Assembly: GCF_018459925.1 (NCBI RefSeq)
Contig: NZ_CP075371.1
Span: forward strand, 3,968,001-4,032,000
Length of the DNA stretch: 64,000 nt
Source of the DNA: Nocardioides aquaticus
Lineage (GTDB): Bacteria > Actinomycetota > Actinomycetes > Propionibacteriales > Nocardioidaceae
Direction: 5' to 3'
The first letter of the stretch is position 1; every line of letters begins with the position of its first letter. This document shows positions 14,874 to 34,646 of this stretch, one piece after another. The position numbers and the translations under genes are program-made. The notes under the pieces are model-generated. The model ran no database searches, was not told where the DNA came from, and saw nothing but the letters and a program-made list of their open reading frames with translations.

Positions 14874-15677
14874 ATGACCCAGCCACTGGACGACGATCAG
14901 GAACACGCTGGCGACCCCGCTCCCGCCTACGACCGGGAGGCGGAGGTCCGCAGGGTCTTGGCGAGCGACGAGAGCCTGATGGGGCGCATCTACTGCTACG
15001 AGCGTGACAAGCTCACGCCCCAGCAGATCGCAGATGCGGAGGGCAATCAGACGCCCGCATTCGTCTACAACTACCGGCTCCAGATCAACTCCATCGTCCA
15101 CGGCGAGGTCCCCGACAGTGCGTGGGTGGCACGAGGCGTGGCAGCAAAACTCCGCCGCTGGCTAAGGGTCGTTGAGCTGTCTCCCGATCTCCGACGCGAT
15201 CTGCAGAAGCTCGAGTCGACAGCCAGGAGCCGGGCCGACGACCCCGACGCGGAGGCTGACCTTCTCAAAGAGGCGGTCACCAAGACCGTCGAAGCAGAGC
15301 AAAAAGCCGGAGCCGGCATCTACGTCTACACGCTCCCCCACTACCTTAAGCACCCAATCGACCCCGCGTCTGGCAAGACGCTGTTGAAGGTCGGACACTC
15401 CGCGAGGGATGCTCACTACCGAGCCGGATCCCAGGGCAGGTTGACTGCGCTGCCCGAAGATCCGCTCCTCCTGAGGATCTACCCGGCGCAGGAGTCGTCC
15501 AAGACCGAGCGGGAGTTCCACGCCTGGCTCCGCGATGCCGACCACGTCGCGGGCCGCACGCGCCGCGCCGGCTCCGAGTGGTTCGTGACCTCGGTCAAGT
15601 TCCTCGACCGGATCGCAGGGTCACTGAACCTCGAGGTGATCGAGGTCAACCAGTTCGACACGAGCGACGACGCATGA
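14874..15677 (+). CDS. T5orf172/GIY-YIG-like nuclease-domain protein
   Basis: 267 aa. AAAGG lies five bases before the ATG. Residues 1-145 are mostly helical and charged, with no named domain. From about 148 a T5orf172-type GIY-YIG domain follows: GIYVYTLPHYL, LLKVGHSARD, a RIYPAQESSKTEREFHAWL helix with the conserved Glu, and SEWFVTSVKFLD. GIY-YIG domains cut DNA or nick it. It is the first gene of four with overlapping ends (ATGA with the next gene), so the four proteins are probably made together as one defence module. Confidence 0.75.
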   Translation: MTQPLDDDQEHAGDPAPAYDREAEVRRVLASDESLMGRIYCYERDKLTPQQIADAEGNQTPAFVYNYRLQINSIVHGEVPDSAWVARGVAAKLRRWLRVVELSPDLRRDLQKLESTARSRADDPDAEADLLKEAVTKTVEAEQKAGAGIYVYTLPHYLKHPIDPASGKTLLKVGHSARDAHYRAGSQGRLTALPEDPLLLRIYPAQESSKTEREFHAWLRDADHVAGRTRRAGSEWFVTSVKFLDRIAGSLNLEVIEVNQFDTSDDA

Positions 15678-16894
15678 CCTCGGTCTTCGGGTGGCTCGAT
15701 CAGGACGACGCCCAACGCGCAGCGATGAGTGACGTCATCAAGATGTTCCAGGACCCCGGAAGTGTCGACGAGCTCGGTGTCGGCGCGATCCGCGACGCCT
15801 ACTCCAACTCGTTCTTCCCAGGGACTTCGGTGCTGCACACCCGTGTGCGCTACCTCCTCTTCGTACCCTGGCTGATCCAGGAGGCGTCCCGGCGCGGCAA
15901 GCCGATGGACCAGGCCCGCAAGGAGCTACGGGAGCACGAGGTTCGATTGATCCGTTCCCTGATCGAAGGCGGGATGAAGTCCGGAGTCATCGGCAGCCAG
16001 GCGCAGGACCGGCTCAAGACGATGCCGAGCCAGACCTACTGGCCCGCTCTTCAACGACTCGGCATCGTCCGGTGGGACGTCAGCATCGACTCACATCTGC
16101 GCCGAGCGACCCAGAGCGCGCGCCTCGGCGTCGAGGTCACCGAGGCAGACTCGCCAGACCGTGGCAGCGTCGACCTCGGCTGTGACCGGCAACTGCCACC
16201 GCGGCCCCGAGACCTGCTCACCTCAGCGACATTCGACCTCACCACCGACGAGGCCTCCTACCTTCAGTCGGTGTTCGCACGTCTCCCCGGCAACAGCCTC
16301 TTGTCGTGGCTGGCGGTACGCCCGGAGGCCGCCACCGGTGACCGCCTGTGGGACTCACCCGCTGTCGCGGGACTGCCAGCGGAACTGGGAAGCCGCGTCG
16401 ACCACGCCCGACGACTGCACCACGCGTGGCACGGCGCACCCCTTCTCTACAACCTAATGCTTGCCGAACTCGAGGAGAACGACGACCTGACCGAGGAATA
16501 CCACGAGCGACTGACGAGGTGGGAAGACGAGCTGCACGACCACCGCGTGTTCGAAGGCTGGTCCAGACCCGACTTCTGGACCGTCACCCAGGCTCTGAAC
16601 CCGCGACTTCGCCGCAGCACCCGAAGCTTCGTGGAGCGCTGGTTTGAGCTGGCCGAGGCTGGCGAGCACGCGGGCAAGGACGCCCGCGAGCTCGTCCGAA
16701 CCCGCGAAATGCAGCTGAAGAATAGGCGTAGCCGGCTGTTGGACGCGCAAGCGCGCCAGACGTGGACCCCGGGAGCTGGCACAGGGCGCCTCGCCTTCCG
16801 GTGGGACATCGCCCGCAGTTTCCTCGGCGACGTGCGCGCCGCCCTCGACCCCGACCTCACCTCGGCGGGCGCCGTCGAGCCGGAGCGTGCCTGA
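15674..16894 (+). CDS. DUF6361 family protein
   Basis: 406 aa, starting at the ATG that overlaps the previous stop codon (ATGA). The N-terminus MTSVFGWLDQDDAQRAAM and the block RDAYSNSFFPGTSVLHTRVRYLLFVPWL are the hallmarks of DUF6361. The rest is helical, with YLQSVFARLPGNSLLSWL and a basic C-terminus. The function is unknown. In other genomes the family is found beside phospholipase-D-like and helicase genes, the same order as here. It overlaps the next gene by one base (TGATG). No catalytic motif is evident, so a structural or sensor role is possible (inference). Confidence 0.7.
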   Translation: MTSVFGWLDQDDAQRAAMSDVIKMFQDPGSVDELGVGAIRDAYSNSFFPGTSVLHTRVRYLLFVPWLIQEASRRGKPMDQARKELREHEVRLIRSLIEGGMKSGVIGSQAQDRLKTMPSQTYWPALQRLGIVRWDVSIDSHLRRATQSARLGVEVTEADSPDRGSVDLGCDRQLPPRPRDLLTSATFDLTTDEASYLQSVFARLPGNSLLSWLAVRPEAATGDRLWDSPAVAGLPAELGSRVDHARRLHHAWHGAPLLYNLMLAELEENDDLTEEYHERLTRWEDELHDHRVFEGWSRPDFWTVTQALNPRLRRSTRSFVERWFELAEAGEHAGKDARELVRTREMQLKNRRSRLLDAQARQTWTPGAGTGRLAFRWDIARSFLGDVRAALDPDLTSAGAVEPERA

Positions 16895-18726
16895 TGCTGA
16901 ATCCCGAGAACCGACACCTGCTGACCGACGCGCTGCGGCCACCTAGCGGTTTCACCGTCGACGTCGCCCTCGCGACGACGTACACGCTGGACCTGCACTC
17001 GTTGCTACTGGCGCCCCTGGCGATGGCGGCCTACGACCACACGTCAGCGGAGACCCCCGATGCCGCGACCCCGGTCGCCCTCCTCGAGTCGATCCGACGC
17101 CACGCAGAGCACACCACCGTCCTGTGTCAGGCCGCCGGGATCCACGTACCAGGGACCTACCACCGGCTTGCGGCCTTCGCCGAGGGCATGGTCGCCGAGG
17201 TCGTACCCCCGACGGGTGGCACCTTCCATCCCAAGATCTGGGTCATCAGGTTCATCGACGTCGACGGCACTCGACGCCATCGTTTTGCCTGCCTGAGCAG
17301 GAACCTCACCGGCGACCGCTCCTGGGACACCGTGCTGGTCTGCGAGGAGGACCCCGCCACCGAGGCGCAGCTCGACCCTCAGCCCGTCGCCACCTTCGTG
17401 CGCGAGCTGCTCGGTTCGCTCGTACGGCCTCTTTCGCCGGAGCGTCAGGCACAGGTGCTCGACCTGTGCGACAGCCTCGCTGGCGCACCCCTGGCGGTCC
17501 CGTCGCCCTTCACCGCAGCCCGGGCCGTGCCGCTTGGCACCCCGTCAGGCGACAGCTGGCCTCTGCCGGAGCGTGCCTCGCGCCTGGCCGTGATCTCACC
17601 CTTCCTTGAGTCGTCCGCTCTCGGGCGACTCCCTAAGACAGACGGCCGCAGCATCCTCCTCTCCCGTACGGAGACCTTCGAACGGGTCGGTCGCGACGCG
17701 TGTGGCGACGCCGAGACGCTCGTGCTCCAGGCGATGGCCGACGTCGTGTCAGCCGAGGAGGACCCTGCGGATGCGGTGAACACAGACCGCGCGACAAGCG
17801 GGCCGCCTCCCCGCGGTCTCCACGCCAAGGTGTTCGCGTGGGAGGAAGGCCGCACGAGCCACCTCCTCACCGGGTCAGCCAACTGCACTGCTGCAGCGTT
17901 CGGCGCCAACATCGAGATGTCGGTGTTGCTGAGCGGGTCGAAGGCCGTCTGCGGGATCGATGCCGTACTCGGTGATGCCAAGACCGGACTGCTCGCGCTC
18001 ACCCAGCCGCACGAGATCGTCGAGGCGGACGGGGTGGAGGACTCGACTTACGTCGTCGAACGTCGCATCGAGCAGTGGCACGCGGCCCTCGCCTCGAGGT
18101 GTCCGACACTGTCCGCGGAGACGACTGGCGACGACTTCTGTCTGAAGCTCGACGTCAATCTCCCCGCGGACCCGCACGGTCTCGCCAAGTCGACCACCGT
18201 GCGGCCGGTGGCTTCGAAGAACTCGCCCGCGCGACCATTGGGCTCGGACCTCAGCTGGCGGAACGTCAGCTTGCACGGCCTGAGTCCCTATCTCGTGGTC
18301 AGCACCACGGCGGGCGTCGACGGCTTTCCGCTCGTCCGGGAGTGCGTCATCCTCTGCGAGATGGTGGGGGCGCCAGGGGACCGTCTCCGTCGCCTGTTGC
18401 GCGACCTGCTGTCGCGTCAGCAGGACGTACTGCGCTACTTGGCACTTTTGCTGGGCGATGTCGGAGCCTCCGACCTGCTCGACCGGCTGCTTGCCGACGA
18501 CGACCCGGATGATCCGGACGACCAGGCGGATGGTGGCTTCAGGCCGGGATTCCACGACCTCGTGCTGCTCGAGCCGCTGGTCAAGGCCGCGGCGCGCAAC
18601 GACGACGCGCTCGTGCGCGCACACCGACTTCTCGACGACCTCCGCGACTCGGAGGGCAACCTCACCCAGCTCGACGAAGACTTCCTGCACCTGTGGCAGG
18701 TCGTATGGGAGGCAGCTCAGCGATGA
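16894..18726 (+). CDS. Phospholipase-D-like (HKD) nuclease-family protein
   Basis: 610 aa. Two HxK elements mark a PLD-type fold: GTFHPKIWVIRF near 108, followed by ACLSRNLTGDRSWD, and GLHAKVFAW near 308, followed by LLTGSANCTAAAFGANIE. The second matches the HxK...GSxN pattern of PLD/DrmC-like nucleases; the first pairs its HxK with SRNLT. The C-terminal ~200 residues are acidic and helical and have no named domain. PLD-fold nucleases cut DNA or RNA in several defence systems. The gene shares one base with DUF6361 and overlaps the helicase start (ATGA), so the stoichiometry is probably coupled. Confidence 0.75.
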   Translation: MLNPENRHLLTDALRPPSGFTVDVALATTYTLDLHSLLLAPLAMAAYDHTSAETPDAATPVALLESIRRHAEHTTVLCQAAGIHVPGTYHRLAAFAEGMVAEVVPPTGGTFHPKIWVIRFIDVDGTRRHRFACLSRNLTGDRSWDTVLVCEEDPATEAQLDPQPVATFVRELLGSLVRPLSPERQAQVLDLCDSLAGAPLAVPSPFTAARAVPLGTPSGDSWPLPERASRLAVISPFLESSALGRLPKTDGRSILLSRTETFERVGRDACGDAETLVLQAMADVVSAEEDPADAVNTDRATSGPPPRGLHAKVFAWEEGRTSHLLTGSANCTAAAFGANIEMSVLLSGSKAVCGIDAVLGDAKTGLLALTQPHEIVEADGVEDSTYVVERRIEQWHAALASRCPTLSAETTGDDFCLKLDVNLPADPHGLAKSTTVRPVASKNSPARPLGSDLSWRNVSLHGLSPYLVVSTTAGVDGFPLVRECVILCEMVGAPGDRLRRLLRDLLSRQQDVLRYLALLLGDVGASDLLDRLLADDDPDDPDDQADGGFRPGFHDLVLLEPLVKAAARNDDALVRAHRLLDDLRDSEGNLTQLDEDFLHLWQVVWEAAQR

Positions 18727-21700
18727 CGAATAAGTCCGATGGCCCGACGTCCGAGCAGTCGGGCCGGCCCGACGTGGAACACGAGCTGCGCCAGCTCAAG
18801 GACTTCCAGCGGCGCACCGTCGATCTTGTGCACGATCGCCTCTGGAGCACAGAGGACCCGACTCGACGTTTCCTCGTCGCTGACGAGGTCGGCCTCGGCA
18901 AAACGCTGGTAGCCCGCGGCGTCATCGCCAAGACCATCGACCACCTCTGGGATTCGGTCCCCCGCATCGACGTTGTCTACATCTGCTCGAACTCCCAGAT
19001 TGCCCGCCAGAATCTTCCGAAGCTACGCGTCGGCGGCGATGTCGAACGCCACCACGCTGACCGGCTCACCATGCTCGCCACCGAGCTGCGTCACCTCGAA
19101 GGACGCAAGCTCAACTTCGTCTCTTTCACCCCAGGCACTTCCTTCAACCTGCGCAGCAATGGCGGGAAGGTCGAAGAGCGAGTCCTGCTCTACTGGTTGC
19201 TCAAACTGACCTGGAGCTCCGAGGTACGCCCGGGGCCCTGGATGAACTTCTTCCGCGGCCGCGTGCGAGTCGAGACCTTCCGCCGTCGAGTCGACGAGTT
19301 CGACCCGTCCCACCTCTCGGCTGACCTCGCGCGGGACTTCGCCGAGAGTCTGCAGACCCCCGGGTTGGAAGGACGCGCGCTCATCGACGACGTCCGCGAG
19401 TGCGTCCAGCGGTACCGCAACGCCGGCGGGCGCGTGTCGTCCCAGCTCAGTTCGGACCGTTACTGGGTGATGGGGAAGTTGCGCAGGATGCTCGCTCGTG
19501 CCGCTGTCAAGCGCCTCGAGCCCGACCTCGTGATCCTCGACGAGTTCCAGCGCTTCAAGGACCTGATGGCAGACGAAGGGGAAGGCGCCGAGCTGGCGCG
19601 GGAGCTCTTCGACCACGGTGACGCTCGGCTTCTCCTCCTCAGCGCTACTCCGTTCAAGATGTACACGCTGCCCGACGAGCCCGAGGGCGACGACCACTAC
19701 CGCGACTTCGTCGACACCGTGGGCTTCCTGGCCGGCAGCGACCGGGCCGCAGCCGTTCAACAGCACCTCGCCGACCTCCGCACTGGGCTGTATGCGGATG
19801 ACGGCGACAAGGCTAAAGCCGCGCGGGACCTTGCCCAGACCGAGCTGCGTCGCGTCATGTCACGCACCGAGCGGTTGGCTACCACGCCCGACCGTGACGG
19901 CTTCGTCGTCCCGCACGAGCTGCCGGAGACCTCGCTCCGCGCAGACGACGTCCGCGACTACGCACGTGTCAGCGCTGTGTCCAAGGCGGTTGGGGGCCAG
20001 GAACCGTTGGAATACTGGCGGTCCGCGCCGTTCGTGCTGGAGCTCATGGAGGGCTATCAGATCAAGCAGAAGCTGCTGACCCACGCATCCGACGACCCTG
20101 CTCTGGTCGATGCGGTCGACCGTGACGGCGGGTCCAGACTGCGCTGGTCGGACATCGTGCGCTACGCACCGCTCGAGCCGGGAAACGCGAAGATGCGGGG
20201 GCTGATGGCCGACGTACTCGACCGCGGAGCCTGGCAACTGGCGTGGATCCCCCCGTCCCTGTCCTACTACGACCTCGATGGGCCCTACGCCGACTCTCGG
20301 CTCTGCGACTTCACAAAGCGGCTGGTCTTCTCTTCCTGGGCTGTCGCCCCGAAGGCAATTGGCACAGTCCTGAGCTATGAGGCCGAGCGACGGATCAACG
20401 AGGTCGCCGCGACCTCGAGCCGATCAGCGAGCCTCAACCGGTATGACGGACCCCGGGCAACCGGATTGCTGAACTTCCAACAGTCCGAGGGGCGACTCAC
20501 CGGCATGCCAGTGCTGAGTCTCCTCTATCCCTCGGTTGCCCTGGCAGAGGCCGGCGACCCGGTCACTGTCGCTCGCAACCTCGGCGCCACCTTTCCCCTG
20601 TCCTGGGAAGACATGGAGCGTGTCGTCCGAACCCGCGTCAGGGGCCTCCTGGACACCCTTCCGAGAGGTCCGTCGGGAGGCATGAGAGAGGACGCCGACT
20701 GGTACTGGGCAGCGGGGGCGCTCTTGGACCGAAGTCGTGGGCTCGACCGGATCGCCACCTTGCCCTACGGCTCGTCCGATGACGAGCCGGACGACCGCCG
20801 ACGGTTCGTCGACCACCTAGCCGAGGCTCGAGCGCTCGATGCCACGCAACTCGGACGCCGCCCTGAGGACCTCGAGGACGTCCTCGTCCTCCTGGCGGTC
20901 GGAGGTCCCGGTATCGCCGCACTGCGTGCCCTGTCGCGGGTCTCGGGTGGAGAGTCGGTCATCTCCACCCAGGGCACACGCGACGGGGCCTCCCGGATGG
21001 CGTGGTCGCTGCGCAACCTCTTCAACAAACCCGAGCTCATGGGGATCATCCGTGGTGCTGGCCGCGATGCGTACTGGCAAGACGTCCTCGTTCACTGCGT
21101 CCATGGGGGCCTCCAGGGCGTCCTCGACGAGTACGTCTACCTACTCGACCAAGCCGTCGGCCGTGACGACCCGACCGACAAGGCGTCCGCAATCGCACGC
21201 CGCTTCGACGAGGCAACATCGCTGCGCACGGCGACCCAGACATTCACCGACGTGTCCACCGCCGATGGCCAGGTCAAACTCGAGTCCCATCGCACGCGCA
21301 CCCACCTTGCCGTGCGGTTCGGCCGCGGCGTCGCCGAGGACGACAAGAGCGTCATGCGCGAGGGGCAAGTGCGCGAAGCGTTCAACTCACCGTTCTGGCC
21401 CTTCGTGCTGGCCTCGACTTCCGTGGGTCAGGAAGGCTTGGACTTCCACCACTACAGCCATGCCGTAGTCCATTGGAACCTGCCATCTAATCCAGTCGAC
21501 CTGGAGCAACGCGAGGGGCGCGTGCATCGCTACCAGGGCCACGCCGTGCGGAAGGACGTCGCAGCCAGCTACCACGACCATCCCGCCGTCGTGAACGCGG
21601 ACAACCCGTGGGCCTGCATGTTCGAGCTCGCGCTCGACGAACGCAAGGCTGGACTCAGCGACATCTACCCGTCATGGGTCCCACCCATGGACAAGGGCTC

Positions 21701-21893
21701 GGCACGCATAGAGCGCTACGTGCCGGCGCTCCCCCTGAGCCGTGAGAGCCACGCGCTCCAGCGGCTGCTGCGCACGGTCGGGGCCTACCGCATGGTGCTC
21801 GGCCAGCCACGTCAGGAAGACCTGTTGAGATACCTCGGCGAGCGGGCGCACGACTTGACGGGGTTACAGATCGACCTGGAGCCTGGCCGCTGA
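18723..21893 (+). CDS. SNF2/DEAD-type superfamily II helicase
   Basis: 1056 aa from the ATG at 18723, which overlaps the previous stop. Motif I VADEVGLGKTLVARG lies near 50, motif II LVILDEFQRFKD near 270 (DEFQ replaces the usual DExH), motif III LLLSATPFKMYT near 303. In the C-terminal RecA lobe are STSVGQEGLDFHHY and the arginine-finger motif EQREGRVHRYQGH near 925. A ~350-residue region between the lobes is poorly conserved. The protein is probably the DNA-translocating motor that drives the PLD and GIY-YIG components. A DrmD-like fossil lies 3.4 kb downstream, but this helicase does not resemble DrmD at its N-terminus. Confidence 0.8.
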   Translation: MTNKSDGPTSEQSGRPDVEHELRQLKDFQRRTVDLVHDRLWSTEDPTRRFLVADEVGLGKTLVARGVIAKTIDHLWDSVPRIDVVYICSNSQIARQNLPKLRVGGDVERHHADRLTMLATELRHLEGRKLNFVSFTPGTSFNLRSNGGKVEERVLLYWLLKLTWSSEVRPGPWMNFFRGRVRVETFRRRVDEFDPSHLSADLARDFAESLQTPGLEGRALIDDVRECVQRYRNAGGRVSSQLSSDRYWVMGKLRRMLARAAVKRLEPDLVILDEFQRFKDLMADEGEGAELARELFDHGDARLLLLSATPFKMYTLPDEPEGDDHYRDFVDTVGFLAGSDRAAAVQQHLADLRTGLYADDGDKAKAARDLAQTELRRVMSRTERLATTPDRDGFVVPHELPETSLRADDVRDYARVSAVSKAVGGQEPLEYWRSAPFVLELMEGYQIKQKLLTHASDDPALVDAVDRDGGSRLRWSDIVRYAPLEPGNAKMRGLMADVLDRGAWQLAWIPPSLSYYDLDGPYADSRLCDFTKRLVFSSWAVAPKAIGTVLSYEAERRINEVAATSSRSASLNRYDGPRATGLLNFQQSEGRLTGMPVLSLLYPSVALAEAGDPVTVARNLGATFPLSWEDMERVVRTRVRGLLDTLPRGPSGGMREDADWYWAAGALLDRSRGLDRIATLPYGSSDDEPDDRRRFVDHLAEARALDATQLGRRPEDLEDVLVLLAVGGPGIAALRALSRVSGGESVISTQGTRDGASRMAWSLRNLFNKPELMGIIRGAGRDAYWQDVLVHCVHGGLQGVLDEYVYLLDQAVGRDDPTDKASAIARRFDEATSLRTATQTFTDVSTADGQVKLESHRTRTHLAVRFGRGVAEDDKSVMREGQVREAFNSPFWPFVLASTSVGQEGLDFHHYSHAVVHWNLPSNPVDLEQREGRVHRYQGHAVRKDVAASYHDHPAVVNADNPWACMFELALDERKAGLSDIYPSWVPPMDKGSARIERYVPALPLSRESHALQRLLRTVGAYRMVLGQPRQEDLLRYLGERAHDLTGLQIDLEPGR

Positions 21894-22059: not shown

Positions 22060-22974
22060 ATGCTGGAGATCGTGGTGGATCTGCCCTTGGAATTCTCGAA
22101 GCGCGAGGCCTTGATGCACGCGCTCGCGACGGAGTTCGCGCAGAATGCGGTTCTGACGAGCAAGTGGCTCGGGCGAGTCGATTTCGGATTTGGTCCTGAG
22201 CGCGTCAAGGACGTAGGCAAGGGAATCTGGAATCCGTCGGCCTACGTCGGCACACTCACGATCGTCAGCGACCCCGACAGCGAGTACGACGACGGCGATC
22301 ATGGCGACTCGCTGTACCGCTACTCTTATGAGAAGCGGCCGGCGGGCCAGGACCCGCTAGGCGGATCCAACATCAAACTTCGCCAAGCAATGCGCCTGGG
22401 TCTACCCATTGTGATGCTCCGCAAGATCTCCGACGGTCGGTTCGTTCCTGTCATGCCGGTCTATGTCGTGAAGGAGGAACCCGAGCATCGTCGATTCCTT
22501 CTGGCTCTCGACGAGAGTCTCCGTTTCCTTCCCGACCCTGCTCATCTCACCGAGGACCAGCGTCGCTACGTCGAGCGGGTCGTTCGCCAGCGCATGCATC
22601 AGCCGGAGTTCAGATCGCGCGTGCTGGGCGCTTACGAGCTGAAGTGCTCGGTGTGTGACCTCAAGAAGACCCCCCTCCTCGACGCCGCGCACATCACGGC
22701 CGACGCGGCGGTCGAGGGCCTGCCTGTGGTCACCAACGGTCTTGCTCTGTGCAAGATCCACCACGCTGCCTACGACGAGAACATTCTCGGGGTCTCACCC
22801 GACTACGTCGTGCACATCAACGATGCTGTGCTCGCTGAAGTCGATGGCCCGATGCTGAAGTACGGCCTGCAGCAGATGGACAAGGGAGCGCTTTGGGTGC
22901 CGCGACGGGTCGAACATCGCCCCGACAAGGACCGCCTCGCCGATCGATTCGAAGCCTTTAAGAGCGCTGGTTGA
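22060..22974 (+). CDS. HNH endonuclease with N-terminal sensor-like domain
   Basis: 304 aa. The N-terminal ~170 residues contain GIWNPSAYVGTLTIVSD, SLYRYSYEKRPAGQDPLGGSNIKLRQAM and PVMPVYVV. The same pattern precedes HNH domains in predicted modification-dependent enzymes, where it reads DNA modification; SRA-like or SBD-like binding is possible but unproven here. The C-terminal HNH nuclease has CSVCDLKKTPLLDAAHI near 196 and NGLALCKIHHAAYDENILGV near 227, giving the paired Cys, His and Asn/Asp positions. It stands alone between the helicase cassette and the retron. A role as a type IV-like restriction enzyme is likely. Confidence 0.75.
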   Translation: MLEIVVDLPLEFSKREALMHALATEFAQNAVLTSKWLGRVDFGFGPERVKDVGKGIWNPSAYVGTLTIVSDPDSEYDDGDHGDSLYRYSYEKRPAGQDPLGGSNIKLRQAMRLGLPIVMLRKISDGRFVPVMPVYVVKEEPEHRRFLLALDESLRFLPDPAHLTEDQRRYVERVVRQRMHQPEFRSRVLGAYELKCSVCDLKKTPLLDAAHITADAAVEGLPVVTNGLALCKIHHAAYDENILGVSPDYVVHINDAVLAEVDGPMLKYGLQQMDKGALWVPRRVEHRPDKDRLADRFEAFKSAG

Positions 22975-23248
22975 CCACACGAGGCGCCGTTCTGGTCTCT
23001 CGGCCAGAGGCCTAGGGGCTCCAACCGCCGGTCATTGATCCCACCGCTGCAGACATCGCCTCGGGTCCTGGACCTATCGGCGCAGTGACATCGGCTCGCG
23101 AGTAGGCGAAGAGTCTGATTCATCACCGGGGCGGTGCTAACTTTCGATCCGGCGGCCGGGAGGCCTCAGGAACCCATCCGTGTAGATGGGGCCGACCTCG
23201 GGTTCCGGGGATGCTCTCGCCATCGCGAGAGCAGGAGGGAACCGAGCA
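22975..23248 (+). ncRNA. Putative retron msr-msd region
   Basis: This 274-bp non-coding stretch directly precedes the reverse transcriptase, the usual place of retron msr-msd RNA. It holds a chain of short perfect hairpins: GGTCC-T-GGACC (23064-23074), CACCG-GGG-CGGTG (23124-23136), CCCATC-n6-GATGGG (23173-23190), which can also pair further out as GGAACCC/GGGTTCC, and GCTCTCGC-CATC-GCGAGAGC (23213-23232). I could not identify the outer a1/a2 repeats or the branching G with certainty, so the limits are only the gene-free interval. Confidence 0.45.
23213..23232 (+). promoter_or_regulatory. Eight-base-pair hairpin just before the RT ribosome site
   Basis: GCTCTCGC and GCGAGAGC pair perfectly around CATC and end directly before AGGAGG (23233-23238). 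It could be the 3' stem of the retron RNA, an RNA-processing site, or a structure affecting RT translation. Confidence 0.4.
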
Positions 23249-24586
23249 ATGGCGGTAGTGCACATCAGCAATCAAGGTGGGGCCTCCCGGCGGCCGACAC
23301 CCACCGCATTTGTCCAGCAAGTAGCCCGCCGCGTCGACGTCCCGGTCACTTACGCCAGGGACGTGCTCACGCGGTCGATCTTTCCCTACCGCAGGGTCGA
23401 GGTCCGCAAACGCACTGGCGGCCAGCGGATCCTCCACAGCCCGGAGCTACCGCTGATGAGGATGCAGCGATTGTTACTCGACGACCTCCTGCCGTCCGCG
23501 CCCACTCACGCGAGCAGCTACGGCTACGTCCCCGGCGCATCGGTGCTGGATTGTGCAAGCGTGCACCTTCGCAGCCACACGGTGGTGCGGATCGACATCG
23601 CTGACTTCTTCTCCTCGATCACCGAGCGGCACATTTTCCGGGCACTGTCGACAACCGGATGGCCCTCTCACATCGGCGGACCTGTGGCAGGCGCGCGAAC
23701 GAGCCACGTCGGTCCGAGGATGAGCCGCTTGCTTGCGTACGAACTCGCGGTCCTCACAACGGTGAGCCCCCCAGGGTCTGCCACGTGGCCGAACCGCGGC
23801 ACGGGGTCGCGAGTGATCGACGAGGACAGCGCGATTCCGCGGGCCCATCCGTACTCCGGCCAGACCGAGGGATTCCTCCCCCAGGGCTCGCCAACGAGCG
23901 GAGCACTCTCCAACCTGGTGATGCGGCCGATCGACGACCTCGTCCACGACGTCGCGCGCAGAATGCACCTCAGGTTCAGTCGGTACTCGGACGACCTCTT
24001 CTTCTCCTCCACGCGTCCGATAACGCCGGACACTGTCGCCCGACTCGTTCACGAGGTCCGCGCGGCGCTCCAGATCATCGGGTTGCATGTCAACGACAGC
24101 AAGACACGTGTCGCTCGGCCGGGGTCTCGTCGAACTGTGTTGGGCGTCCTGGTGGACCAGAGCGCCCCCCGTGTGGGGCGGGACGTCCACCGCCGGATCG
24201 ACATGCACCTCCACGGCAGCCGCCGGTTCGGCATCGATGAACATGCGGAGCATCGCGGCTTCATCGACCCTGAGGACTTCCGTTCGCACATGCAGGGGCT
24301 GATCTCGTGGATCCAGATCGTCGAGCCGGGTCGTGGTCACCGCTATGCCGAGGACTGGGCGCGCGCCATCCGCCATTCTCGCCTCTACGCATCCCCCGAC
24401 CTCGCCCTGGGAGAATCGATCGCCGCCCTCAGCCCAGTGAACCCGCCGACTGAATCCGCCGCGAAACAGTCGATCGATGACCTCATCGTGGCTGGCGTTC
24501 GTTATCGATCGACAGTCGAATACTTGGAGTTGCTCCGCTTTATCGAGCGCTTTCACCACTATGCCCCTTCAACGCGATGCTCGTGA
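23249..24586 (+). CDS. Retron-type reverse transcriptase
   Basis: 445 aa. Start chosen at the ATG ten bases after AGGAGG. The retron RT motifs are in order: RKRTGGQRILHSPE near 55, YGYVPGASVLDCA, VVRIDIADFFSSI near 113 (first catalytic Asp), GFLPQGSPTSGALSNLV near 208, and FSRYSDDLFFSS near 243, with YSDD in place of YADD. After it come GLHVNDSKTRVARPGSRRTVLGVLV, the retron-style motif that precedes the thumb. A ~60-residue insertion between the DIADFF motif and the QGSP motif is unusual. The enzyme would make msDNA from the upstream RNA. It overlaps the metallopeptidase by ten bases, which marks that protein as the probable effector. Confidence 0.88.
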   Translation: MAVVHISNQGGASRRPTPTAFVQQVARRVDVPVTYARDVLTRSIFPYRRVEVRKRTGGQRILHSPELPLMRMQRLLLDDLLPSAPTHASSYGYVPGASVLDCASVHLRSHTVVRIDIADFFSSITERHIFRALSTTGWPSHIGGPVAGARTSHVGPRMSRLLAYELAVLTTVSPPGSATWPNRGTGSRVIDEDSAIPRAHPYSGQTEGFLPQGSPTSGALSNLVMRPIDDLVHDVARRMHLRFSRYSDDLFFSSTRPITPDTVARLVHEVRAALQIIGLHVNDSKTRVARPGSRRTVLGVLVDQSAPRVGRDVHRRIDMHLHGSRRFGIDEHAEHRGFIDPEDFRSHMQGLISWIQIVEPGRGHRYAEDWARAIRHSRLYASPDLALGESIAALSPVNPPTESAAKQSIDDLIVAGVRYRSTVEYLELLRFIERFHHYAPSTRCS

Positions 24587-25335
24587 ACCTGCAGAGACCG
24601 GGCGCCCGCTACGTCCTTACGCGATCTGATTGGCGTTCGCAGTACAAGCGGGTTCTCGCTCCGGGGGCACAATCCCTGGTGATCCTCCAGCCGCGAGGGC
24701 CCTACATGGTTGTTTATGACGTCGGCGATACCGAACCCATGCCGGGCGCACCACGCCTACCGCGAGAGGTGACCGATCCACTGGCGGCGCGGACACCGTC
24801 GACGCCCCGGGCTGTCGCCGACATCTGGAGCCGGACCATCGACAATGCCATCCGCGATGGAATCCGGGTGTCGATGGTGGACACCGCCGCTGGAGCAGCC
24901 GGTCAGGCGTACCGCAACAGGGGCCGAGGGCAGCTGGAGCGACCAGGATCGCGAAAGCAGCCCCGAGAGTATTTCGAGCTGCGCATCGAGGTCGAGGTCA
25001 ACCGGAACCTGACTGCTCTCGACCGCTATCTGACATTGGTACACGAGCTGGCCCACGTCTATTGCGGGCACCTCGGCGCCCTCTCGGACGAGCCGTGGCC
25101 TGACCGCGAGAAGGGGAGTGAGGCTCGAGACGAAATCGAAGCCGAGTCGATTGCCTACGCGGTGGTGTCCCGGCTGGGCCAGCAGATCGAGATGGGCGAC
25201 TACATTCTCGAGTACGCACAGACAACAGAGTCGGTTCCGGCCGACGTCGAACTGCGCATGGTTGCGAGGGTCACGGGTGACATCGAAGCCATGGGTAAAG
25301 CGCGGTTGCCCTCACGGCCCTACGCTAACCGGTAA
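24577..25335 (+). CDS. ImmA/IrrE-like HExxH metallopeptidase, probable retron effector
   Basis: 252 aa. The zinc motif VHELAHVYCGHLG lies near 153, with a downstream Glu-rich helix EIEAESIAYAVVSRLG supplying the third ligand, as in ImmA/IrrE and ArdC-like zincins. The N-terminal 80 residues carry no recognised domain. Its start overlaps the RT gene by ten bases, so the two are translationally coupled. In retrons the neighbouring gene is normally the toxic effector released when msDNA is disturbed; a peptidase could cleave a host target or an inhibitor. I cannot assign this pair to a named retron type. Confidence 0.75.
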   Translation: MLVNLQRPGARYVLTRSDWRSQYKRVLAPGAQSLVILQPRGPYMVVYDVGDTEPMPGAPRLPREVTDPLAARTPSTPRAVADIWSRTIDNAIRDGIRVSMVDTAAGAAGQAYRNRGRGQLERPGSRKQPREYFELRIEVEVNRNLTALDRYLTLVHELAHVYCGHLGALSDEPWPDREKGSEARDEIEAESIAYAVVSRLGQQIEMGDYILEYAQTTESVPADVELRMVARVTGDIEAMGKARLPSRPYANR

Positions 25336-25966: not shown

Positions 25967-26437
25967 CTAGCGGCTCACCCCGTCCGGCCAGATGATCCGG
26001 ACGGACTTCCCTTGAGTGATCGCGTAGTCAACGACGTCCCCCGTGCCCCCGGTCCCGGCGGCGGGTTTGCCGTCCCAGACAGCGACCAAGAGGTCCGAAT
26101 CGTCGACGACTCGTTTGCCTGCTGCGTAGAACGCCTCTTCCGATGGCTCAGCGAAGTCGAGTGTTGTGACGGCCTCTGCTTCCGAGAGAAAATGGACGTA
26201 CCGCTCGCGCGTTGAGTCGTCGAAGGTGGAGGCGTAGCCCTCGCTTGGGACTATTACCTGTAGGGACAATCCGTGACCGAGGGCAATCTCGGCGCACTCC
26301 TGGTCGGCACCTTCGGCGAGGCTGCCTACCAGGGCAGTCGCGTGCGCCTCGACCAGCACTACCGGCAAACGTTCACGGAGATAGTCCACTGCAACGCTCG
26401 GGAGACCTTGGTGTCCCGTAACACCTACCGTGGTCAC
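25967..26437 (-). CDS. SLOG-family nucleotide-sensor-like protein
   Basis: 156 aa from a GTG at 26437 that overlaps the caspase stop codon (GTGA). The SLOG/LOG-like Rossmann signature is clear: GVTGHQGLP near 5, LVGSLAEGADQECAE near 33, LQVIVPSEGY, then AGKRVVDDSDLLVAVWDG near 106 and GGTGDVVDYAITQG near 131. SLOG domains bind nucleotide derivatives; in Thoeris ThsA proteins such a domain senses the cyclic ADP-ribose isomer made by the TIR partner. Here it is a separate protein with no effector domain, coupled to a caspase-like protease, so it may be the ligand receptor or a sponge for the signal (inference). Confidence 0.75.
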   Translation of the reverse strand: MTTVGVTGHQGLPSVAVDYLRERLPVVLVEAHATALVGSLAEGADQECAEIALGHGLSLQVIVPSEGYASTFDDSTRERYVHFLSEAEAVTTLDFAEPSEEAFYAAGKRVVDDSDLLVAVWDGKPAAGTGGTGDVVDYAITQGKSVRIIWPDGVSR

Positions 26438-27426
26438 AGGCTGCCCTTGTCGGCAAGCGCCCAGAGCATCCGACCGGCGGGAGTGAGGAACACATCGTGA
26501 TGCTGCAGCGTCGCGAAGTAGAAGTCCTCGTCGTTCTCGGTCGTCGCCAGTCCCACGTTGCGGAGCCGCTTGAGGTAGTCGAGTTCCTGCTGCGCAGGCG
26601 TGCCCGGTGAGGAGAGTGGACGGCCCTCTCCTTCGTGTTCGTCGGTCAGCGAGATTCGGGACGTGGCGGTGTCGAAGTGATCGGGCAGGTGCCGCGCGTC
26701 CTCTGCCGAGATCCACTCCGGGCCGCTGCGAAGCAGGACAGCATCGGTCACGTGAGCCTTGAATACCGGTGTCTGCTCCCAAGCGTCGAACGCGCGCGAA
26801 GCGTGCGCGTACAGAGACAGGGCGGTGATGTTGCCCAGGTGATCGGTTGCCGCACCGTCGAGGCCATCAAGGAGCAGGCGCGTGAACTCCCCGTGTCCTG
26901 CCGATTCCATCGAGACCTCGGTGGACTTGGATGCGGCAAGGACCGTTACCCCTTCGGACAGTGCCGCGATGGCCTTACGGAAGTCCGGGGCAACCTGGGT
27001 TGCTTGCAGCCCTGGGGTGTTGCCGACATCGCCACTGAAGCAGCAGTCGAGCACGATGGTGACGGTGCTGGCTGCGCTGTTGTTGGCCAAGGTCATGAGT
27101 TCGTTGACCGGGACGCCGTCGTTGTCAGAGGTGACGAGTTCCGCGCCTCGGATGTCTTCTCGGCCGTGCCCTGAGAAGTAGAAGAAGAGATCCTTGCCGC
27201 TCGCGTTCTCGAAGAGTTGGGCCATGGCCTCCCGCAGATCAGGACGGTCGACGGGATCCGCGCCGTGGTCCGCTGTCAAGATGGCAACAGTGAAGTTCGG
27301 CGCACCGTCGTCATGTCTCGCGAGGCGGGTGGCAATCCCTTCGGCGTCGGCGACACACCCGTACAGAGGTCCGCGCGCGTAGTTGTTGATTCCAACTACC
27401 AGTGCCCGGCGGTTCCGATGCGACAT
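26434..27426 (-). CDS. Caspase-family (peptidase C14) protease
   Basis: 330 aa from the ATG at 27426, which overlaps the TIR gene stop (TGATG). The caspase fold is marked by RRALVVGINNYA at the start, the catalytic His in FFYFSGHGRED (His87) and the catalytic Cys in TIVLDCCFSGD (Cys129). The domain spans about 1-230. The C-terminal ~100 residues contain a helical segment (ELDYLKRLRNVGLATTENDEDF) and no named domain. Bacterial caspase-like proteases cause abortive cell death when activated. The order TIR, caspase, SLOG with overlapping ends points to a TIR-made signal that turns on the protease. Confidence 0.85.
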   Translation of the reverse strand: MSHRNRRALVVGINNYARGPLYGCVADAEGIATRLARHDDGAPNFTVAILTADHGADPVDRPDLREAMAQLFENASGKDLFFYFSGHGREDIRGAELVTSDNDGVPVNELMTLANNSAASTVTIVLDCCFSGDVGNTPGLQATQVAPDFRKAIAALSEGVTVLAASKSTEVSMESAGHGEFTRLLLDGLDGAATDHLGNITALSLYAHASRAFDAWEQTPVFKAHVTDAVLLRSGPEWISAEDARHLPDHFDTATSRISLTDEHEGEGRPLSSPGTPAQQELDYLKRLRNVGLATTENDEDFYFATLQHHDVFLTPAGRMLWALADKGSL

Positions 27427-27857
27427 CACGCCCATCCGGCGGCGCCCGCGTTCTTCCCAAGGTTGGCGCACTGGTCGACCATGTTCGCCACCGATTCCCA
27501 CTTCCAGGCAGTAACGCTCTTCCGAGCGAGCCCAGTCGGCAAGGTCGATGTCGCTCCGGCACCGTTGACGTAGACGCCGAAGCAGGGCACGTTCTGCGCT
27601 CGTGCCATCTCGATCTCCTTGACCACGCCTGTGGCGGTGCTCATGTTCTTGCCGACAAGCACGATAAGCATGTGACAGTTGTTGATCTTGGACTTGATCA
27701 ACTTCTCCCACTCGGCTTGGGGAAGGGCGGTCTTCGAGGACCAGTCTTCAACAGCGAAGGGGGTAGGCGAGTCCTTCTTCGCCTGCCCAGCGAACATAAC
27801 CTTCACATCAGAATCATTGTCGAAGTCGAAACTAAGGAAAGCGCGGGGCAGGGACAT
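27426..27857 (-). CDS. TIR-like protein of the ThsB (MTH538/DUF1863) type
   Basis: 143 aa from the ATG at 27857, five bases after AAGGAG. RAFLSFDFDND near 6, an EDWSSKTALPQAEWEKLIKSKI helix near 38, CHMLIVLVGKN near 61 and GVVKEIEMARAQNVPCFGVYVN near 77 are characteristic of the ThsB branch of TIR proteins. In Thoeris these use NAD to make cyclic ADP-ribose isomers after phage sensing; the Glu in VKEIEMA (about 81) is the likely catalytic position. It is the first gene of the three-gene operon with the caspase and SLOG proteins. Confidence 0.8.
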   Translation of the reverse strand: MSLPRAFLSFDFDNDSDVKVMFAGQAKKDSPTPFAVEDWSSKTALPQAEWEKLIKSKINNCHMLIVLVGKNMSTATGVVKEIEMARAQNVPCFGVYVNGAGATSTLPTGLARKSVTAWKWESVANMVDQCANLGKNAGAAGWA

Positions 27858-30354: not shown

Positions 30355-33063
30355 CTAGTTGGTCGCTCTGGCCTTCGCGCGTAACCAGTCGGTGGGGCTC
30401 GCCTGCTTCGGCCCCGCCGGTGCGCCAGCGTCCGGGTCCTCGGTCGTCGGTTGCTCAGTTGTGTCCGCGAGGTCGTCGTAACCCAGACCGAGTTGGGAAG
30501 CGTCGATCCTCTTGTCCCAGAGTCCGACCTTGGTGCCGGTTCCGTCGGGTACGGCCTCGTCGGCGTAGTGGAGGCTGGCGTTCTCGAATGACTTGAACTG
30601 GTAGATGGCGGCGTTCATGTGCTGGGCGTTGAAGAGGCCAAGCCGGTTGAGGAGTCGGAAGTCTTTGACGGTCAGCCCCGTGACGCGGGTGAAAAGTTCG
30701 GAGTCGAGTGACTCGATGACGTCCTTGAGCGATTCCTCACGGAAGTCCGTGACGTACATGAATACGGGGATCTTGGCGAGAAATTTCTGCAATTTCTCGC
30801 GGATCTGCTTTCGTGCACTGTTGGACTCCTTTCTCTCCGTTTTCTCGTCGTCGTCGAGGTTGTTCTTACCTTTCTCACGCTCAACCTTTTTCAGTTTCTT
30901 GGTTGAGGTGACGACCTGCTGGGCCATGTTGGCGAGGTTGCGGAAGTCCTCGATCTGCTCCAGCGCTTCCAACAGGTCGGGGTGTTCGAGGAGTGCGCTG
31001 AGAGTGTGCTCATTGACGTCGACTAGGACCGGCGAATTCCAGCGGGCAGCGAGGGCAGATGCCCCCACGCCAGTTGTGGCGATGTTGAGTACGTCGGCGG
31101 CGTCCAGTTGGCGCATCTGTCCGCCTGAGAACTGGAAGATGGGCAAGTAGTTCATGAGGTCGCCAATGGCCTGCTGTGGAGTGGTCTCTCCAGTCGTCGC
31201 TAACTTCATGCCGTATTCGGCTACCAGAGTGAGCGCACGGTTGGGATCAAACTCGAAGACGTAGACGGTGTCCTTCTGGACGTCGATGCTGCCGCCTGCC
31301 GTGCGATACGACCAGGGTGACTGGACGCGGAACGCGGACTGGAAGTAGGACTCAGGCGACTTGAGGCTGCGGAGCATGAGGATCGCGCCCCACTCGCGGA
31401 TGGTCACACCTGTCATCAACTTGCCGCAGGACAGCGTGATGGACCCAGACAGCCTTTGGTCGCGAGCCTTTTTGATGGCTTTCTCGACGGGTGGCTTGGC
31501 CTCCGCACCCATGCCCGCACCGGCACCCGCCGCGACGTGGATTTCGAAGCCGTTGAAGTATGGGTGCGCCTCAAGGATGTCACGCATAGCGAAGCAGGAA
31601 CCCACGTCAGCCATGTACCAGACGGAGTGCTGGATGGCGTCTCTGAAGTCGGCTGACTCGTAGGGGAAGGGCGCCTTCTTCCCGCTCACCCCGAGAAGTT
31701 GCACCTTCATCTGCTCGGTTAACTTGCCGCGCAGCATTTCCAGGAAGTCTTTGACGCGGGTCTCGTCGTTGAAGGTGTAGGTGCCGCGCTCGACCTTCTT
31801 GGACTTGGATTCGGGGTCCGCCTTCTGTGCCTTGAAGTATTCGGTCAGGCTGAACCCGTTGAACTCGCCGTCGTTAGCCCACTCTGTTGCGGGCGCACCG
31901 ATCTCGTACGCGTACATCTTCATACCCGGCAGGTCTACGTACGGGTTTTGTCCGTCCGCGTCATCCCAGTGAGCCTTGGCGTTCTGCTCGTCTACGTAGG
32001 TCCAGTTGAATACCGCGTCTTCGGTGAACTCGCCGTTGGTGATGGCGCGGAACGGCGTGCCCGACAGGTAGAGGTAGTGCTTGGAGTTGAGACCAAGGTC
32101 TTCCTCCGTCACCCAGTCGTCCGGTTCCTCGACCTCGGCGAGTTCTTTCTCGGTCGGGTCGTAGAGGTCACGCGCACCGTCTCGCCAAGCACCGAAGTGG
32201 TACTCGTCGAGAACGATGCAGTCCCACTCGATGTAGTGGAGTGTCTCGTTGCGTTCCTTGATGCCGCCGCCCGCTGCCTTCCCGGTGATGTCTTGGAACG
32301 ACGCGAACCAGACCAGCGGGTCCGCTCCGTCAGCCAACTCATCCGCGACGTTGACCGGCGTTGTCCGGTCAACGAAGTGCCACCCCTCGAAGTCGACGTG
32401 CCCGAGAAGGTCGTCGCGCCAGGCCGACTGGACTGCCGGTTTATAGGTGAGGACGAGGGTTCGCTTGAAGCCCATTTCTCGGGCCAGTTGGTAGGCGGTG
32501 AAGGTCTTCCCGAAGCGCATCTTGGCGTTCCAGAGCACTTTAGGAGCGTGTGTGCCGCCTCCCTGGGAGAGGAAGTAGCCAGCCGTTTGCGCGACTGCGT
32601 CCTCCTGCTCGGGTCGCATCGGGAAGTCTTGTGTGCGCTGAGACTCGTAGGCAGTTCCGTTGCGCACTGCAACGAGGGCGGCTTTCACCTCGTCGAGAGT
32701 GGCTTCAAACCACTCTTGCTCTTTCGAGATCCCTTGGGTGACGAGTGCGCGGTGAACGTCTCGGTCGCCGAACCACGAACCGTCGGAGCGTTTCGCCTCT
32801 TCTTCTAAGAGGATGTCAACCCCACGGAGTCCCGGGTAGGCGGTGTTGAGTTGCTGCTTGATGCGTTCGAAGGCGGTGGGCTTTGTTGTCTCGCCGACCT
32901 TGATGAGGCCGGTGCCGGTTGTGTGCATTTGACCGACGGTTCGGTCCCAGGCTTGGTCTTTCCGTCCGGGCACGGTGTAGGCGTAGATCAAGCGGCGGGT
33001 CTCTGGGGCAGGGGCCGTTTCAGGAACCTCTTCAACGAACGCTTTTTGCGGATGCATGCTCAT
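30355..33063 (-). CDS. Restriction helicase with N-terminal GIY-YIG domain
   Basis: 902 aa. The N-terminus resembles a GIY-YIG/T5orf172 domain: LIYAYTVPGRK near 25, TGLIKVGETTKPTAFERI near 50 and a Glu-containing KEQEWFEATLDEVKAAL helix. A superfamily II helicase follows: motif I LWNAKMRFGKTFTAY near 178, motif II CIVLDEYHFGAWRD near 285, motif III YLYLSGTPFRAI, and motif VI SAFRVQSPWSYR. A Lys/Glu-rich linker near 740-780 precedes the C-terminus. The ATG overlaps the methylase stop (ATGA). It is the restriction and translocation subunit of the adjacent methylase pair. G+C is visibly lower than in the chromosome backbone, which suggests transfer. Confidence 0.8.
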   Translation of the reverse strand: MSMHPQKAFVEEVPETAPAPETRRLIYAYTVPGRKDQAWDRTVGQMHTTGTGLIKVGETTKPTAFERIKQQLNTAYPGLRGVDILLEEEAKRSDGSWFGDRDVHRALVTQGISKEQEWFEATLDEVKAALVAVRNGTAYESQRTQDFPMRPEQEDAVAQTAGYFLSQGGGTHAPKVLWNAKMRFGKTFTAYQLAREMGFKRTLVLTYKPAVQSAWRDDLLGHVDFEGWHFVDRTTPVNVADELADGADPLVWFASFQDITGKAAGGGIKERNETLHYIEWDCIVLDEYHFGAWRDGARDLYDPTEKELAEVEEPDDWVTEEDLGLNSKHYLYLSGTPFRAITNGEFTEDAVFNWTYVDEQNAKAHWDDADGQNPYVDLPGMKMYAYEIGAPATEWANDGEFNGFSLTEYFKAQKADPESKSKKVERGTYTFNDETRVKDFLEMLRGKLTEQMKVQLLGVSGKKAPFPYESADFRDAIQHSVWYMADVGSCFAMRDILEAHPYFNGFEIHVAAGAGAGMGAEAKPPVEKAIKKARDQRLSGSITLSCGKLMTGVTIREWGAILMLRSLKSPESYFQSAFRVQSPWSYRTAGGSIDVQKDTVYVFEFDPNRALTLVAEYGMKLATTGETTPQQAIGDLMNYLPIFQFSGGQMRQLDAADVLNIATTGVGASALAARWNSPVLVDVNEHTLSALLEHPDLLEALEQIEDFRNLANMAQQVVTSTKKLKKVEREKGKNNLDDDEKTERKESNSARKQIREKLQKFLAKIPVFMYVTDFREESLKDVIESLDSELFTRVTGLTVKDFRLLNRLGLFNAQHMNAAIYQFKSFENASLHYADEAVPDGTGTKVGLWDKRIDASQLGLGYDDLADTTEQPTTEDPDAGAPAGPKQASPTDWLRAKARATN

Positions 33064-34646
33064 TGGGGACCTGCGTCGGAAGCGGGGTTGACAGCCATCT
33101 CGCGGACCTGCGACTTGATGAACTCGACTTCAGACGCGTCGAGCCCGTACCGCTGGTAGAGGTCAGCGTCCGTCCAGCGCGATGCCATGGGCAAGTCTGG
33201 GACGAAGGCGAAGGTGTCTCTTTTGATGTCTTGCGTGTTCATGCGGAGTTGAATGAGGAATCGCACGAACCGTGTCCGAAGGAACGCGTCGAGGTTTCCG
33301 GCCTGTTCCATCTTCTCGTAGGCACCGACAACGAGGTAGGTGCCTGAGCAGGCGGTGTCTTTCCCTACCAAAGTTGGGGCGGCTGTGACGCGGTACGGGG
33401 GCTCACCGTCCTCTCCGTATGCCCGGTGCATCAGCACCTTGCATAATCCGACCTCGGACTTGTTGACCGTGATCGCGTTGCGGTCCATCCACGTCTGCTT
33501 TTTGCTGCCATAGAAGCGAACCGCGTCGGGCAAGCCTGCGGAGGTGTCCTTGCCATGCACGTTTGTTTGGAAGCCGAACGGAAGTCGGGAGGACACCTTG
33601 GCGTCGAGTGTGGCCTCGTTCTTGGACTGGACTTTCCGCAGGATCGAGACCGCTTCGTTTCGGCGGATGAGAACGTCCCATTCGTCGAGGTGGCGCTCAA
33701 CCGGCTCGCCCAGGGGCTGACCGTTCCACATGGTCTGGACTCGGCAGGTTCCGGGTTCGTCACGGTTCCAAAGGAAGTAGGAGACGCCGCCGCGAATCTT
33801 CACGCCCGGGAAGGCGTCGTAGAGGCGGGGGTAGTCAACCAGCACACGCATGTGGCGGTCCGCCAGTCGGGCGGCTCTGAACTCAGCGAGTCCGAGTCCT
33901 CCGGCGAACCACCTCGATGGAGTAATCATGGCTACGTATCGAGGCCGTAGAGCGATTGCTTGGTCCACAAAGAGTTGGTAGAGGGGTCGGTCGCGGTTCG
34001 AGCCGTCTACGCCGATTTGGTAGGGAGGATTGCCGACGATCACATCGAACTTCATGTCGCGCATCTCCTCCGTCGGGTAGGCGTCGTGAATGAATGAGTA
34101 GGCGTAGTTCTCGCGTGCTTCACCGCGTTCAAGGTCGAACGCAGCGCCGCACTTTAGACATCCGCCCGTGACGGTTCCATCGATCTTTTTGGGGTAGGTG
34201 TGTCTTGTATGAACAAACGGGAGGTTGCCCGCTCCGTCGTCGAACTGCACAACTGAGTCTGATCCGCTCGCGTCGCGGCTGTAGTAAAGCGAGCGCCGCG
34301 AGATGAGTCCGGTCATTTCTGTTATGGAGGTTCCCCAAAGCATGTTGCGGTAGATGTGGTCGCGGCGCGCATCGAAGTCGGGGAATTGGTCCGAGAGGCC
34401 CTCCAAGAGCCGCCCTGCGGCTTCGCGGAGGAACACTCCCGACTTACAGAATGGGTCAAGCCACACGTAGTCGGGTGTCCCCCAAACGTTGCCGGGGAGT
34501 TCGTCCAGCACTGCTCGGGCCAACTTGGGCGGAGTGGGGACCTCGTCGTTGGACAGTTGGGCCAAGCAGTCAAGGATGTCTGGCACGTACTGACCGGTGC
34601 GGATCTGATTGGCGACCTCATACTGGCTCGCCCTTACTTGCGTCAT
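33060..34646 (-). CDS. Eco57I-type N6-adenine DNA methyltransferase
   Basis: 528 aa. Motif I appears as VWLDPFCKSGVFLREA near 61, with Cys-Lys in place of the usual Gly-Ser, and the catalytic motif as FDVIVGNPPYQIG near 200 (NPPY). A small CLKC zinc knuckle near 162 lies between them, and LAMITPSRW-like strands follow. The C-terminal half is the target-recognition region. It modifies adenine in the host copy of the site cut by the partner helicase-nuclease. The start overlaps the preceding methylase gene by 29 bases and its stop overlaps the helicase start. Confidence 0.8.
   Translation of the reverse strand: MTQVRASQYEVANQIRTGQYVPDILDCLAQLSNDEVPTPPKLARAVLDELPGNVWGTPDYVWLDPFCKSGVFLREAAGRLLEGLSDQFPDFDARRDHIYRNMLWGTSITEMTGLISRRSLYYSRDASGSDSVVQFDDGAGNLPFVHTRHTYPKKIDGTVTGGCLKCGAAFDLERGEARENYAYSFIHDAYPTEEMRDMKFDVIVGNPPYQIGVDGSNRDRPLYQLFVDQAIALRPRYVAMITPSRWFAGGLGLAEFRAARLADRHMRVLVDYPRLYDAFPGVKIRGGVSYFLWNRDEPGTCRVQTMWNGQPLGEPVERHLDEWDVLIRRNEAVSILRKVQSKNEATLDAKVSSRLPFGFQTNVHGKDTSAGLPDAVRFYGSKKQTWMDRNAITVNKSEVGLCKVLMHRAYGEDGEPPYRVTAAPTLVGKDTACSGTYLVVGAYEKMEQAGNLDAFLRTRFVRFLIQLRMNTQDIKRDTFAFVPDLPMASRWTDADLYQRYGLDASEVEFIKSQVREMAVNPASDAGPQ

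Follow-up and report, generated by a model that had tools for sequence, protein, structure and literature searches.

Type IV Thoeris, for which Rousset 2025 is the original report, is described as a two-protein system. In the available portion of PMC12847820, this name is given to the combination of a TIR protein and a caspase with the signal N7-cyclic ADP-ribose (N7-cADPR). In type I Thoeris, a SIR2 effector is fused to SLOG in the ThsA protein, and the ThsA SLOG domain has been solved with 3'cADPR (title of entry 7uxs). SLOG and caspase domains are also discussed in other conflict systems in the accessible part of PMC7159879, and CATRA is named in Pfam and once in the available text of PMC8195603, where the word SLOG does not occur. 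Additionally, the accessible part of a 2026 preprint (PMC13232231) reports a phage RyR-domain protein that cleaves 2' and 3'cADPR using His75 and Asp117, with relatives that act as sponges. Here, we analyzed a 64,000-nucleotide stretch of Nocardioides aquaticus (contig NZ_CP075371.1, positions 3,968,001 to 4,032,000; the window), in which genes for a ThsB-type TIR protein, a caspase-like protease and a stand-alone SLOG protein form an operon. We found no description in the open-access literature of a third gene (SLOG or RyR) accompanying TIR and caspase. The first-pass annotation of this DNA had considered a free SLOG protein coupled to a caspase unfamiliar; the TIR-caspase pair itself is already described as type IV Thoeris.

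From its sequence, the operon appears to be an anti-phage cell-suicide system with the TIR-caspase layout of type IV Thoeris and an extra effector-side subunit, the SLOG protein, which quite possibly, though far from securely, binds a ligand and regulates the caspase as one of its subunits. The SLOG gene stays tied to the protease gene even where another gene has taken the place of the signal maker and may therefore serve as an integral control element. Upon infection, the TIR protein would turn NAD+ into a cyclic ADP-ribose-type signal, as expected from its family. This signal would switch on the caspase-like protease, leading to the degradation of cell proteins and the arrest of the phage, as in the described type IV Thoeris. 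The SLOG protein, whose reading frame overlaps the end of the caspase gene, would bind a nucleotide in a Rossmann-type pocket and, as a regulatory subunit, gate caspase activation or set its threshold. On a broader scale, and held slightly more loosely, we consider it possible that one bacterial caspase family has an interchangeable ligand-binding regulatory slot, filled by a separate, translationally coupled SLOG or RyR subunit, with SLOG kept even where CATRA has replaced the TIR signal maker.

The three genes lie on the minus strand in the order TIR, caspase, SLOG, with overlaps of one and then four bases (Table 1), which confirms the end-to-end overlap claimed previously. The TIR protein matched the ThsB_TIR family (PF08937) with 31.7 bits, above the cut-off of 21.2, and the PADLOC ThsB model with an E value of 6e-10; the search for solved-structure relatives by sequence gave one weak match. 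Its Glu81, which we take from family knowledge to be the catalytic glutamate, is kept in all 24 TIRs from SLOG-bearing loci. The caspase of the same operon carries a His/Cys dyad, and His87 and Cys129 are each conserved in 84 of 85 family caspases. Its solved-structure relatives by sequence are metacaspases; the structure-based comparison covered residues 3-239. These matches support the earlier proposal of a Thoeris-like TIR and caspase with a separate SLOG protein. In eight plasmid loci (L112, L175, L180, L181, L182, L184, L185 and L187; L and G numbers are our labels for loci and genomes), a second TIR protein, of the TIR_2 type, adjoins the TIR-caspase pair, with a Pfam TIR_2 match in L175, L182 and L184.

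Table 1. Features of the TIR-caspase-SLOG operon, in window coordinates
Feature	Position	Strand	Evidence
ThsB-type TIR protein, 143 residues, putative NAD+-using signal maker	27426..27857	-	profile matches, Glu81
Caspase-like protease, 330 residues from ATG 27426, with His87 and Cys129	26434..27426	-	
Stand-alone SLOG-fold protein, 156 residues, GTG start; probably nucleotide-binding, putative regulatory subunit	25967..26437	-	
GTGA, four-base overlap of caspase stop and SLOG start	26434..26437	-	sequence
TIR stop codon, sharing one base with the caspase start (TGATG)	27426..27428	-	sequence

The predicted fold of the window SLOG protein is that of the SLOG/YpsA/LOG proteins, with weaker matches that include ThsA and the ADP-ribose-binding TRPM2. 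The model places it in the SLOG superfamily, with a LOG/YpsA-like Rossmann fold and conserved residues on the loops that follow the strands. Structural alignments to YpsA (DUF1273), LOG, DprA and ShosA showed 12-21% identity; the YpsA/DUF1273 cut-off (PF06908) was not reached (17.0 bits vs 27.7), and the sequence search for solved-structure relatives returned none that were convincing. The pocket-loop residues are strongly conserved, which suggests a ligand. Thus, the earlier idea of a free SLOG protein tied to the caspase holds, while its likeness to the SLOG receptor of ThsA has to give way to a fold nearer to YpsA, DprA and LOG.

The third slot, after the caspase, was compared first in 70 caspase loci, a set that mixes loci found via SLOG with loci found via the caspase and excludes 20 ids (13 duplicates, 4 distant caspases and 3 contig-end pieces). 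SLOG was present in 29 of these loci, RyR in 13 and neither in 28, where "neither" means no profile match in a flank of up to 4.5 kb (~1.5 kb for loci taken straight from genome searches). With caspase-found genomes added, the counts for 85 loci were 36 SLOG, 19 RyR, 29 neither and one cut, and no locus of the 85 had SLOG and RyR together. Since part of this larger set came via SLOG, the genomes found by the caspase alone were counted separately. Caspase-only searches gave matches in 7/396, 2/58, 12/394 and 13/293 genomes (overlapping draws), amounting to 28 distinct genomes; without those with distant caspases (G539, G893, G975, G991 and G1029) and G708, cut by a contig end, 22 were assessable. 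The SLOG gene, which the first-pass annotation had proposed to look for in other genomes, recurs beside the caspase in 12 of these 22, with RyR in seven and neither in three (one of them, G388, has a broken caspase gene). The 12 SLOG loci have TIR in six (one a short piece, one interrupted), CATRA in five and neither in one. The annotation had also named the absence of SLOG from all orthologous TIR-caspase pairs as grounds for abandoning its proposal; because the gene recurs, the sequence half of that test fails, with SLOG at 36 of the 85 caspase loci. The third slot is elsewhere RyR or empty, so SLOG is not required throughout the caspase family. In three viral-contig TIR-caspase loci, L148 (5984-6514), L153 (5984-6508) and L157 (4782-5306), the gene after the caspase encodes a protein of 174-176 residues with hydrophobic stretches, perhaps another alternative third gene; the L148 copy had no Pfam match, and the viral-contig caspase relatives were annotated by profile only.

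Based on a SLOG profile scan of named genomes and the neighboring genes, TIR, caspase and SLOG occur together in Actinomycetota (including a Rubrobacter), a Scytonema (Cyanobacteriota) and a Mucilaginibacter (Bacteroidota). Plasmid searches, from which 25 regions were chosen for diversity out of two sets of 52 records each, add the trio in Agrobacterium, Rhizobium binae, Methylorubrum and Bacillus subtilis pBS72 (L110, 3091-4945, in the order TIR, caspase, SLOG). Full-length caspase relatives on plasmids share 35-38% identity over 97-98% of the query among the 20 listed of 52 records, and TIR genes adjoin them in the regions fetched. An accident of one genome was therefore rejected, as the SLOG gene is recurrent across phyla. 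The gene order varies, with caspase-TIR-SLOG in L051 and a convergent TIR in L006 and L009. In the nearest relative, G397, which belongs to the same genus and has a caspase 76% identical, an opposite-strand gene, a transposase by its look, splits TIR from caspase, and the caspase and SLOG genes remain together.

It is the caspase gene, and not the TIR gene, that SLOG accompanies. In flanks of ~1.5 to 10 kb, none of the 114 SLOG loci had a ThsB-type TIR without a family caspase, leaving SLOG as a partner of TIR unsupported. A start codon giving the exact four-base overlap with the caspase stop is available in 27 of the 36 caspase-SLOG pairs. In L006, L009 and G397, the placement of TIR changes while caspase and SLOG remain adjacent. 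A ThsB-type TIR is not in the locus in 10 of the 36 caspase-SLOG loci, and a CATRA protein is encoded upstream in eight of these. SLOG is thus kept with CATRA in the place of TIR at all eight assessable loci (Frankia and kin), five of which were found by the caspase alone. CATRA was recognized by NF038357 in L011 and L019, by the Pfam models CATRA-N, CATRA-C and EAD1 in L019, and by our own profile in the rest. Nine caspases are CATRA-linked, eight of them with SLOG and one in a cut locus, and they form one branch (96) of the caspase tree; in the tree of the 70 loci, their nearest neighbor, L048, is TIR-linked. Like all trees here, these are quick trees with SH-aLRT (Shimodaira-Hasegawa-like approximate likelihood ratio test) support only and a midpoint root. 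It is as if TIR had been replaced once by CATRA, with SLOG apparently retained. A whole-genome search of five genomes with TIR-free loci, limited to the ThsB_TIR family, gave one match, in G454; by its coordinates, it falls inside the large TIR-WD40 gene that precedes the L011 caspase by two genes. No CATRA gene was found beside the window trio, and none of the eight window proteins scanned with NCBIfam matched NF038357 (BN6_48550/CATRA).

Several observations weigh against a SLOG subunit of the caspase. Nine of the 36 caspase-SLOG pairs have no start for the four-base overlap, SLOG lies on the other strand in two loci and upstream of TIR in L184, and the SLOG-caspase gap reaches 415 bases in L051 and 656 in L005. 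Tree distances of SLOG and caspase are only weakly correlated (0.198, with 25 of 1000 permutations as high, in 22 loci); the values are 0.054 for SLOG-TIR (183/1000) and 0.152 for caspase-TIR (33/1000), and the difference between SLOG-caspase and SLOG-TIR is not significant. Distance-matrix co-evolution was accordingly set aside as weak support. With neither SLOG nor RyR within the flank in 29 of the 85 loci, the caspase can do without them. Finally, the family has in common a C-terminal region of ~95 residues, and its columns conserved in 48 SLOG-less caspases mostly persist in another 28 (19 SLOG-linked and 9 CATRA-linked, with L195, a member of the window's clade, counted in the former group). 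In the window's clade, many of these columns are changed, including H301 to D/Q and C312 to V (9/9 each). Outside it, most are kept despite SLOG, so sensing was probably not handed over by the caspase there.

The RyR proteins bear on the strongest alternative. Many SLOG-less plasmid TIR-caspase pairs carry, directly after the caspase, a gene of ~93 residues. R. etli p42a (L179, 3495-3770) encodes one of the RyR proteins. A PF02026 scan of seven such proteins gave five matches with E values of 0.00023-0.0022, one of 0.027 and one protein without a match, all matches being under the Pfam cut-off; a profile built from nine RyR-type proteins found the same protein in further loci. The alignment to a ryanodine receptor was non-significant (E 0.55). 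In the 13 of the 19 RyR proteins that were aligned, a His, a Trp three positions after it and an Asp within an SD motif are all kept (13/13); we equate these with His75, Trp78 and Asp117 of the phage enzyme by motif and spacing, a correspondence of our own. In the aligned proteins, the phage enzyme's phosphate-binding His100 has no counterpart. A protein closely related to the operon RyR protein (60.5% identity) is encoded in an unannotated phage record, MT835687.1 (3634-3876).

Because the RyR proteins appear to keep the catalytic pair of the signal-cleaving enzyme, a damper is a serious rival, although in our judgment a rather unlikely one. As such a damper, SLOG would bind or destroy the TIR product as a host sponge or hydrolase, setting the threshold and guarding against a leaky TIR, with RyR as its equivalent elsewhere. 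The two proteins share one slot and co-occur in none of the 85 loci, the phage RyR protein and its relatives are a cleaving enzyme and sponges as far as the accessible part of PMC13232231 describes them, and some caspases have neither gene. Yet SLOG follows the caspase and not the signal maker, it is retained with CATRA, and the RyR proteins lack the counterpart of His100. To our knowledge, no hydrolase signature is known for this SLOG. Taken together, the adjacency, the overlap and the retention without TIR pull towards the caspase-subunit reading, whereas the interchange of SLOG with an enzyme-like RyR and the caspases without either gene pull towards the damper. The ThsA SLOG/3'cADPR structure and the phage RyR enzyme make both folds credible binders of ADP-ribose-type signals. 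In the caspase tree, SLOG is stable in two deep parts (9/9 and 18/19 rows), with RyR or neither making up most of the rest. A four-row clade combines SLOG (L184 and L159), RyR (L185) and neither (L187), so the slot is exchanged at least occasionally.

It is doubtful that SLOG alone senses the signal and activates the caspase, like the ThsA SLOG domain cut off as its own gene: some caspases have neither SLOG nor RyR, the 28 other SLOG- or CATRA-linked caspases retain most of the C-terminal columns, and the SLOG fold is nearer to YpsA, DprA and LOG. A ligand-independent inhibitor of the caspase, an antitoxin comparable to the DprA-like antitoxin ShosA, appears somewhat more doubtful still, as the conserved pocket loops suggest a ligand and caspases without SLOG exist.

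The SLOG family also extends beyond these operons. In the first loop, all 36 caspase-linked SLOG proteins have GHQ, and 65 of 69 unlinked relatives have GHR; the remaining four (L010, L015, L025 and L044) also have Q. In a tree built without that column, the Q/R change gave only two independent contrasts on supported branches, and the approximately unbiased (AU) test rejected a single clade of caspase-linked SLOGs (p 0.005). GHQ is thus a label, not proof of function, and was rejected as independent evidence. That SLOG is an unrelated housekeeping-type passenger, in the operon by chance, is very improbable: 69 of the 98 SLOG relatives in the tree sit away from family caspases and the linked ones are not one clade, but the first loop differs, the gene recurs in several phyla and the exact overlap is frequent, all of which stands against it. 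A large unlinked group (L018, L020-L043 and others), mostly GHR and with many Streptomyces, has neither a family caspase nor a ThsB-type TIR in its loci. Phage records also contain relatives (79 records; 27.7-30.7% identity among 20 listed), which are mostly called DprA-like. In L010 (8004-13075), L210 and L212, family SLOG genes are close to a distant caspase encoded on the opposite strand, with large genes between the two in L010; these loci possibly represent another caspase-SLOG system.

Other defense-related genes surround the operon. At 23186-25335 on the plus strand, a reverse transcriptase of retron-like type (PADLOC RT_III-A, E 6.7e-102) overlaps another open reading frame, which matches the remainder of that model (E 4.1e-34, positions 365-585 of 597) and, weakly and under the cut-off, an M78 peptidase; this suggests a split reverse transcriptase with a putative protease. 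Beyond it, a defense island at 8992-21893 (+) contains PADLOC PDC-S37 (8992-14130) and ZacA, ZacB and ZacC (15578-21893). An HNH protein at 22060-22974 (+) has a sub-threshold match to phosphorothioate-DNA restriction enzymes, and of two overlapping genes at 30355-34646 (-), each matches a different half of type IIG restriction-methylation models.

Thoeris stops the cell via a nucleotide signal, which raises the question of how accidental firing is controlled or the signal ended; with a third gene that is conserved and comes in two ligand-binding folds, this question becomes directly testable in a small operon. If our reading is true, this gene would provide a bacterial death protease with a nucleotide gate that is split and swappable, or with a signal terminator of its own, echoing two domains of animal channels, the SLOG-like one of TRPM2 and the RyR domain of ryanodine receptors. 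Bacterial caspase control would then be tied to two folds from animal ion channels, and two-gene TIR-caspase systems would merit re-reading for an overlooked third gene.

Compared by described layout, the operon resembles type IV Thoeris in that a ThsB-type TIR and a caspase lie side by side, their active-site residues intact, and differs in the overlapping third gene for a SLOG protein. No SIR2 effector fused to SLOG, as in type I Thoeris, is encoded by the operon: unlike in ThsA, the effector is a caspase, and the SLOG protein is separate (156 residues), shorter and nearer to YpsA. It differs from YpsA, LOG, DprA and ShosA in being the operon partner of a caspase and in falling under the Pfam YpsA cut-off. 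With respect to the phage RyDEP RyR hydrolases and sponges, as portrayed in the available text of PMC13232231, the likeness lies in the RyR-domain proteins found in place of SLOG in 19 of the 85 related loci; these are host-encoded, inside a defense operon, and the window has SLOG instead. The CATRA systems, in which a CATRA-N/CATRA-C protein goes with a caspase, share in Frankia and kin the same caspase family and the same overlapping SLOG gene, whereas the window has TIR where CATRA stands.
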